This document shows positions 1,427-8,399 of a stretch of DNA of 21,609 nt, one piece after another. Within the stretch, counting starts at the first letter, position 1, and every line of letters starts with the position of its first letter. The stretch is from a virus. A program made the position numbers and the translations under genes. The stretch spans positions 1-21,609 of IMG/VR virus record IMGVR_UViG_3300025668_000045. One strand, written 5' to 3'. The notes under the pieces were generated by a model. That model was not told the origin of the DNA. It did not search any database and saw nothing but the letters and a program-made list of their open reading frames with translations.

Positions 1427-2128
1427 ATGAACGACTTTTCTTACGTTACATCAGCTCTTACTGCTATCTCTTCTTACAAGAATCAGTATGGTCTCATCGC
1501 TTCCAATGCTATCCGCATCAACGAAGAGCCAGTCATGAGCTCTTTGCTCAACGCTATCGCAGTCTCTCACGACCGCGCTACCGTTGACGCCACCAACCAC
1601 AAGTTCAACGGCGGCCCAGCACCTGTTGCTCCTCCGATTGCTTACCTTGATTTCGTTCAGGTACTCATGAACAAAGTGTGTGGTCTCGCTCGTCAAGACC
1701 TCCGTGGCAAGCGTACTGAAGACTTCGGTAACGGTATCGACTTCACTCAGGAGCTTACCGACCAGATCGGTTTCAGTGTTGACGCCGAGCAAATCCAGTC
1801 GCTAGTCGATGAGGATTTCTACACGCTCAACAACCTGCACTGCTACATCGCTCAGGGCATGTCGTACATCGATGACATCCCCGCGCTTCGTTACCACGCC
1901 GAGAGCACTAAGCTCGACGACGGTACTTGGATCAAGACCAACATCGCTGACTCCTTCGATGAGGCTCTCACTATCATGGAAGAGAAAGCCGCCATCTACG
2001 CCGAGCAACAGCAGATGGTACGTCAAGGTGAGTCAGCAACCGTCGACTTCGCAGCCCGCAGCGAGCATCCCTCGCCCGAGCAGCTCAAAGCGACCGGCGA
2101 CAAGTTCCGCGAAAGCGTCGCAGCTTAG
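1427..2128 (+). CDS. hypothetical early protein, 233 aa
   Basis: The largest product of the first gene block; I do not recognise it. No membrane segment or signal peptide is visible. The N-terminal half is mixed alpha/beta; the C-terminal 80 residues are acidic and Gln/Glu-rich, probably helical. Codons ending in C (CTC, GAC, TTC, ATC) are more frequent than in neighbouring small genes, which hints at high expression. It has its own structured leader with TAGGA before the ATG and its own strong terminator at 2140-2172, so it is probably an abundant early product. Confidence 0.75.
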   Translation: MNDFSYVTSALTAISSYKNQYGLIASNAIRINEEPVMSSLLNAIAVSHDRATVDATNHKFNGGPAPVAPPIAYLDFVQVLMNKVCGLARQDLRGKRTEDFGNGIDFTQELTDQIGFSVDAEQIQSLVDEDFYTLNNLHCYIAQGMSYIDDIPALRYHAESTKLDDGTWIKTNIADSFDEALTIMEEKAAIYAEQQQMVRQGESATVDFAARSEHPSPEQLKATGDKFRESVAA

Positions 2129-2139
2129 GCACTCCATAG

Positions 2140-2172
2140 CCCATCCAGCCCTCGGGTTGGGTGGGTTTTTTT
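2140..2172 (+). terminator. rho-independent terminator
   Basis: CCCATCCAGCC (2140-2150) pairs, with G-U wobbles, with GGTTGGGTGGG (2155-2165) around a CTCG loop, followed by seven T. It lies 11 bases after the stop of the 233-aa gene and separates the first gene block from the structured region. Confidence 0.9.
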
Positions 2173-2194
2173 ATGCATCTGTATGACCCAACCA

Positions 2195-2390
2195 GCAAGG
2201 CACTCAAACAACACACGGGCGCGCACCGAGCTTCACGTTACTACCGCTAGGGAGTGAAGCAAACGGGACGGGCTCAAACCCGTAGGGACGGTAGCGATCT
2301 TGATCAGATCGTAAGAATAACCGCCCGTGTGTTCTTTGAGTGTCTTGCGTATCCCCCAGACCGGACGGCGCGGATAGCCAGGGGGATATG
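2195..2390 (+). ncRNA. candidate structured RNA in a ~300-bp gene-free stretch
   Basis: Between the terminator and the next convincing gene (2173-2477) no good ORF is visible, but there is strong structure. A long helix pairs 2195-2221 with 2322-2348: 27 positions with one C-C mismatch and one G-U. It encloses three hairpins: 2230-2236 with 2254-2260 (GCTTCAC/GTGAAGC), 2268-2272 with 2279-2283 (ACGGG/CCCGT) and 2295-2300 with 2306-2311 (CGATCT/AGATCG). CTACCG (2241-2246), in the first loop, can also pair with CGGTAG (2289-2294) as a pseudoknot. A fourth stem pairs 2349-2357 with 2381-2389 (five C-G pairs). Six GGA triplets occur in 2195-2390, several in loops or linkers. A CsrA-binding RNA is possible; a MITE-like element or DNA site is the alternative. 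No promoter is clear. Confidence 0.5.
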
Positions 2391-2400
2391 GTGTGCCTGC

Positions 2401-3266: not shown

Positions 3267-3394
3267 TGCCTTACCCGTTTGATTGCCCCAAATGCGGCCA
3301 GCGCTATTGGCGAGAAGAGTCAGTTGTCTACAACGAAAACTACGATGACACCATCTGCTGGCGATGTGATGAAGAAGAGGACGACGAATCATGA
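3263..3394 (+). CDS. small zinc-ribbon-like protein, 43 aa
   Basis: A short ORF with ATGA overlaps on both sides and GGAG upstream. It has CPKCG near the N-terminus (Cys8, Cys11) and CWRC near residue 32 (Cys32, Cys35), 20 residues apart: the four-cysteine pattern of a zinc ribbon. The last 10 residues are nearly all Asp/Glu. Such proteins commonly bind nucleic acid or RNA polymerase; the target is unknown. Confidence 0.7.
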   Translation: MMPYPFDCPKCGQRYWREESVVYNENYDDTICWRCDEEEDDES

Positions 3395-3585
3395 ACAACG
3401 AATCACGCACCATCAAAACTGAGCATGACGTTATGGTCACTCTTCTTTCTTACTTACATCACCATTATTTAAAAGTCAGTGAGACAGACGAAGCCCACGT
3501 AACCATATCTGTTGACCCAGTAGAACTAACGCAATGTGTTGCTGTGCTAGCACGAGCCCAAACAATGAGGAGCATCCAGCCGTGA
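3391..3585 (+). CDS. hypothetical protein, 64 aa
   Basis: Starts in an ATGA overlap with GAGGA upstream. A His-rich N-terminal helix is followed by a short beta segment. The TGA overlaps the GTG start of the next gene. Family not recognised. Confidence 0.65.
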   Translation: MNNESRTIKTEHDVMVTLLSYLHHHYLKVSETDEAHVTISVDPVELTQCVAVLARAQTMRSIQP

Positions 3586-8210: not shown

Positions 8211-8399
8211 ATGCCGCGACTAGTACTAACAAGGAAACTCAACGAGAAAATCATCCTTCATGATGATGACGGTGTTCTTGCTGAAGTAAAGATATCAAAA
8301 GTCGATAGGAATCAGGTCCGTCTTACATTTGAAGCGGACGAAAGCATCAAAATTGATCGACAAGAAATATTTAATAAGAACGCCGATCCTACTAAATAG
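8211..8399 (+). CDS. csrA: CsrA/RsmA-family RNA-binding regulator, 62 aa
   Basis: CsrA binds GGA motifs in mRNA leaders and blocks or promotes translation; it acts as a homodimer and is sequestered by GGA-rich RNAs. The protein has family length and aligns end to end: LVLTRKLNEKIIL matches the N-terminal LILTRRVGETLMI of E. coli CsrA, NQVRLTFEA matches NQVRIGVNA, and IDRQEIF matches VHREEIY. The key RNA-binding residues Leu4, Arg6 and Arg44 of the family have counterparts, shifted by a 2-residue insertion at the N-terminus and small changes inside. No Shine-Dalgarno is visible; it probably depends on coupling to the polymerase gene. It sits immediately upstream of the primase-helicase. Phage-encoded CsrA proteins are uncommon; the targets are unknown. 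Confidence 0.9.
   Translation: MPRLVLTRKLNEKIILHDDDGVLAEVKISKVDRNQVRLTFEADESIKIDRQEIFNKNADPTK

Follow-up and report, generated by a model that had tools for sequence, protein, structure and literature searches.

A candidate structured noncoding RNA cassette in a variable slot of uncultured temperate phages

What kind of element lies in the gene-free, foldable DNA behind a strong terminator in an uncultured temperate phage? The whole stretch of DNA analysed here (the window; 21,609 nucleotides) is a 21.6-kb IMG/VR virus record. Its source is an uncultured temperate phage, and its gene families include a family A DNA polymerase, a VapE/DUF5906 protein, a PD-(D/E)XK nuclease and an SNF2 helicase, together with a CsrA homologue, an HTH repressor and an integrase. 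The integrase and the polymerase have best identities of about 33-38% to known relatives. A preliminary description of the sequence had reported a strong terminator followed by about 300 bp without a gene. The terminator is present, with its stem at 2138-2167, and the distance was about right, as the next small gene probably starts at 2478, some 310 bp past the terminator, in a context that is conserved in one relative (L004); a long co-directional operon lies downstream. Terminators were also read in the sequences at the corresponding place in L004, L009, L260 and L285-L290. The element that occupies this slot is real, conserved, structured and accessory, and it is most likely a noncoding RNA cassette without an Rfam family match.

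The fold of 2195-2348 is real. The minimum free energy of 2195-2390 is -94.4 kcal/mol, compared with -61.6 +/- 4.4 kcal/mol in dinucleotide shuffles (0/200 as stable), and among 200-nt windows ranked by minimum free energy only the repeat-rich region at 20.4-21.2 kb, inside a large minus-strand ORF, is comparable. The closing helix P1 comprises 27 positions, namely 26 pairs (one G.U among them) and one C.C mismatch, and it encloses three hairpins (Table 1), which confirms the long helix (2195-2221 with 2322-2348) and three inner hairpins of the preliminary description. The minus strand of 2195-2390 folds equally stably, and a sequence scan of the element region revealed no sigma-70 promoter and no terminator of the element's own.

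Table 1. Coordinates of the element, its parts and its upstream neighbours in the window.
Feature	Position	Strand	Remarks
233-aa gene	1427-2128		upstream of element; without database relatives
Intrinsic terminator of the 233-aa gene	2138-2174	+	13-pair stem at 2138-2167 plus T run; left border of variable slot
Whole element, structured RNA candidate, 154 nt	2195-2348	+	fold z -7.45 (2195-2390); homologue L009:1927-2069, minus strand
P1 closing helix, 5' arm	2195-2221	+	6 outer positions vary and co-vary; inner part the same sequence in both copies
P2 hairpin	2226-2266	+	CCG/CGG at the base conserved; L009 has a different inner 7-bp stem and loop
P3 hairpin	2268-2283	+	4 pairs unchanged, one A-U to G-U in L009
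Junction P3/P4 (AGGGACGGTA)	2284-2293	+	sequence-identical in both copies (alignment)
P4 hairpin, weakest helix	2294-2312	+	in L009 one pair broken and one U-A become U-G, the other 5 unchanged
Junction P4/P1 (AAGAATAAC)	2313-2321	+	one difference between copies (alignment)
P1 closing helix, 3' arm	2322-2348	+	pairs with 2195-2221

When all viral contigs were scanned with a 15-base junction motif, 16 loci matched; one of them, on the 6.4-kb contig L009, holds the whole element on the minus strand. This second copy occupies the same slot in the same orientation, where it follows the terminator of a 233-aa gene homologue, and folds with a z of -6.9 versus shuffles. Outside the inner part of P2 the two copies are about 89% identical (14 of 122 aligned positions differ), whereas the neighbouring proteins share only about 25-29% identity, and among the small genes common to both neighbourhoods the best conserved reaches 73% in DNA. 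P1 starts at the same position in both copies, with unrelated flanks. Within P1, 22 pairs are unchanged, two are altered on one side (A-U to G-U and G-U to G-C) and two are changed on both sides and still paired (C-G to U-A and G-C to U-A), while the central mismatch stays a mismatch (C.C in the window, A.C in L009). The base of P2 is unchanged in L009; its inner stem differs at all seven pairs, all seven still pair, and the hairpin differs in length by 11 nt. Across P1, P3 and P4, six of the seven changed pairs still pair, including the two with changes on both sides; the single break falls in P4, which is absent from the minimum free energy structure of L009 and poorly supported there. The fold is kept in both copies for P1, P2 and P3, and the pairing-breaking substitutions that the preliminary description had named as grounds for rejecting its proposal are limited to that one exception.

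If the nine paired-column differences were placed randomly, about seven pairs would be expected to break, compared with the one observed (P ~1e-4), and a sliding control gave 98.8% paired positions in register against at most 50% out of register. A shuffle control on the alignment (115/500) is powerless with two rows, and the covariation as a whole is read from two homologous sequences only. Templated correction of palindromic DNA, without selection on an RNA, could also be a source of paired changes. The G.U positions, five on the + strand versus one on the - strand, are a mild indication that it is the RNA of the + strand that has been conserved. Covariance models of Rfam 15 produced no match in the window or its relatives at the gathering score and none overlapping the element at E <= 10, which bears out the earlier failure to assign it to a known RNA class, and ARAGORN found 0 tRNA/tmRNA genes. 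Because pairing is kept through double-sided changes, G.U pairs lean mildly towards the + strand and Rfam offers no match, a new structured phage RNA is the favoured reading.

Two further structures drawn in the preliminary description fared less well in comparison. The pseudoknot between 2241-2246 and 2289-2294 can be drawn in the window copy, but its 5' half is missing from L009, and by our own estimate, for a loop and a junction this long, a 6-bp match is not unlikely to occur by chance. The flanking stem of five C/G pairs (2353-2357 with 2381-2385) is present in the window, but in L284, a relative 98-99% identical to the window phage, the 3' arm reads AAGGG and two of the five pairs are lost. 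That the element forms part of a short protein-coding gene is scarcely credible. In the frame of a + strand ORF at 2254, six of the nine differences downstream of P2 share one codon position, but such a skew arises by chance in about 10% of trials; moreover, the copies share no start codon, differ in P2 length and have different ORF ends, and a search for protein relatives returned no family match and none that convinced.

The distribution of the element was read among relatives found through the 233-aa protein and the small downstream gene. These relatives form two groups, one with the window, L284, L004, L260 and, more distantly, L290, and the other with L009 and L285-L289. The element is present in two of the ten phages with a readable slot, the window and L009, and is absent from the slot in L004, L260 and L285-L290, as read directly and in agreement with covariance-model searches. 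The nearest readable relatives of both carriers are without it. The L284 contig starts right behind the element, as if the assembly broke there, and is uninformative on its presence; within that community the element or its slot may vary. Since the two carriers sit in two groups, each with element-free nearest relatives, either two gains or at least three losses are required, and this distribution, together with the contrast in identity between the RNA and the neighbouring proteins, makes exchange between phages the simpler account. By these comparisons the element is accessory and probably horizontally exchanged. An inherited RNA under strong constraint, lost repeatedly, would be a less simple account. 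The original suggestion of a new phage RNA or regulatory element is therefore kept in part: a structured RNA is favoured, and its absence from most relatives marks it as accessory and exchangeable, not as part of the core regulation of this phage group.

The same intergenic region carries the motif GTGTGCC in four related phages (window 2391-2397, L009, L004 and L260). It is doubled in three of the four, the second copy in the window being GTGTGCG, and in three of the four it is followed by a conserved TGCTTCACTATCATCATTTT; this region is likely an operator or promoter of the early operon. The position of the element relative to this motif bears on the possibility, which we rate as improbable, that it works in cis as the leader RNA of the early operon, for instance by controlling translation or as an antiterminator like put. 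In L009 the next gene begins about 40 nt downstream of the element, and in the window the long co-directional operon follows it, both in favour of a leader. However, the two carriers have different next genes, and eight relatives have the same operons without the element. The GTGTGCC pair comes after the element in the window and before it in L009, which makes a fixed cis role less likely than a self-contained unit. The HK022 put RNA, a cis-acting phage antiterminator of about 70 nt with two stem-loops directly behind the early promoters, is likewise a structured phage RNA in early-region intergenic DNA (PMC9378689). The element is twice that size and has another architecture (PMC9378689): its long helix closes around three hairpins, and its place relative to the likely operator motifs is not fixed. 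A DNA-level site for replication or single-strand initiation is very improbable: a long palindrome would fit such a site in a phage that encodes its own polymerase, but there is no GC-skew switch at 2.2 kb, and most relatives lack the element, whereas a site of this kind should be essential.

The main and serious rival to an RNA cassette is a mobile palindromic DNA element, MITE-like or REP/ERIC-like, in which the P1 arms would be terminal inverted repeats mobilized by an enzyme in trans and the RNA fold would be incidental; we consider it unlikely, though likelier than the other alternatives. ERIC, REP and MITE sequences are likewise imperfect palindromes of 100-150 bp in intergenic DNA with sporadic distribution, and here presence in two branches is sporadic, the slots of sister phages are empty, homology stops at the ends of P1, the inner arms are identical in both copies and both strands fold equally. 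In contrast to mobile elements with conserved ends, however, the outermost arm positions, which would form the transposase site, differ between the copies and yet pair. The target duplication is at most 4 bp in the window, and the 6-bp candidate in L009 (AAACCA) is also within chance, because about 9% of random sites do equally well. Instead of several sites, only two copies are known, in the same slot and orientation, and the searches found none elsewhere. The MITE signature that the preliminary description had set against its own proposal, copies in unrelated genomes with target-site duplications, thus did not appear in a convincing form.

The searches for further copies covered viral, plasmid and bacterial sequences. 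A DNA similarity search of phage, plasmid and E. coli collections gave nothing relevant. In five motif scans with junction and arm motifs over 2.9 million viral contigs, L009 was the only homologue among the matches listed, and the other loci listed were short chance matches only, as were those listed from one scan of genome contigs with a too-loose pattern. Candidates L262, L263-L266 and L281-L283 from the motif scans were inspected and are not true homologues. A covariance model of the two sequences (R1) found no homologue in 1,496 sampled prokaryote genomes and 11 single genomes, the sample comprising Gammaproteobacteria (369), Alphaproteobacteria (337), the order of a Paraburkholderia (349), the cyanobacterial phylum (194) and the phylum of a Williamsia (247), all of them guesses at the host. 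Diverged members were possibly missed because these scans use exact motifs or a two-sequence model. The single R1 hit, L269, is a bare inverted repeat with an interior unrelated to the element. This bacterial genome carries two palindromes of about 100 bp (1501-1601 and 2382-2485) with similar arms, 0.9 kb apart, which are perhaps a repeat family of their own.

Other known systems resemble the element in part. Retron msr-msd RNAs share a long inverted repeat that closes a set of small hairpins, but no reverse transcriptase was found among the neighbouring proteins scanned, which cover the small ORFs in part, and Rfam gave no match. Large phage-associated Rfam RNAs such as GOLLD and ROOL are likewise structured noncoding RNAs in phages and mobile DNA; they are several times longer than the 154-nt element, which lacks an Rfam match. 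That the element is a decoy RNA for CsrA, whether of the phage itself or of its host, is likewise very improbable. The window encodes a CsrA homologue (8211-8399) and its copy of the element has three GGA motifs; however, only one of the three is kept in L009, unlike the several conserved loop GGAs of a CsrB-type RNA, and csrA genes also occur in the RNA-free relatives L287, L289 and L290.

Our best explanation is that 2195-2348 is a horizontally exchanged cassette for a + strand structured noncoding RNA, placed in a variable slot behind a phage-gene terminator, possibly released by RNase III and acting in trans, an account to which we give about even confidence. The RNA would be transcribed either from a promoter that escaped recognition or as part of a longer + strand transcript. 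A long helix joining both ends is the excision route of rRNA precursors; P1, with its 26 bp, is long enough for RNase III, which may cut this closing helix and release the core. The released core would then act in trans on a component of the host or of a rival phage, as an accessory function. Conservation of the junctions and of inner P1 suggests a sequence-specific partner. P2, which changes freely, would serve either as a spacer or as an arm for recognition, with its variable tip as the likeliest recognition surface. A broader reading is improbable at present: the element would represent a new family of exchangeable phage cassettes for compact structured RNAs, which RNase III excises from phage transcripts by cutting the long helix that closes them, while one hairpin varies to recognise different targets in hosts or rival phages. 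The search for accessory phage genes nearly always looks for proteins, and the gain and loss of a structured RNA as one unit in a variable slot would show that noncoding RNA cassettes, too, are traded among phages. The two copies and the empty-slot relatives offer a ready comparison for probing the role of the cassette.

Several features elsewhere in the window were also recorded. The csrA gene lies directly behind the DNA polymerase gene, a position kept in L284, L287, L289 and L290, that is, in both phage groups. At the left end (10-240), short CTGCTACACC-type repeats occur in intergenic DNA. A 64-aa protein encoded at 3391-3585, which has no Pfam match, retains about 70% identity across both groups, while the adjacent small genes diverge.
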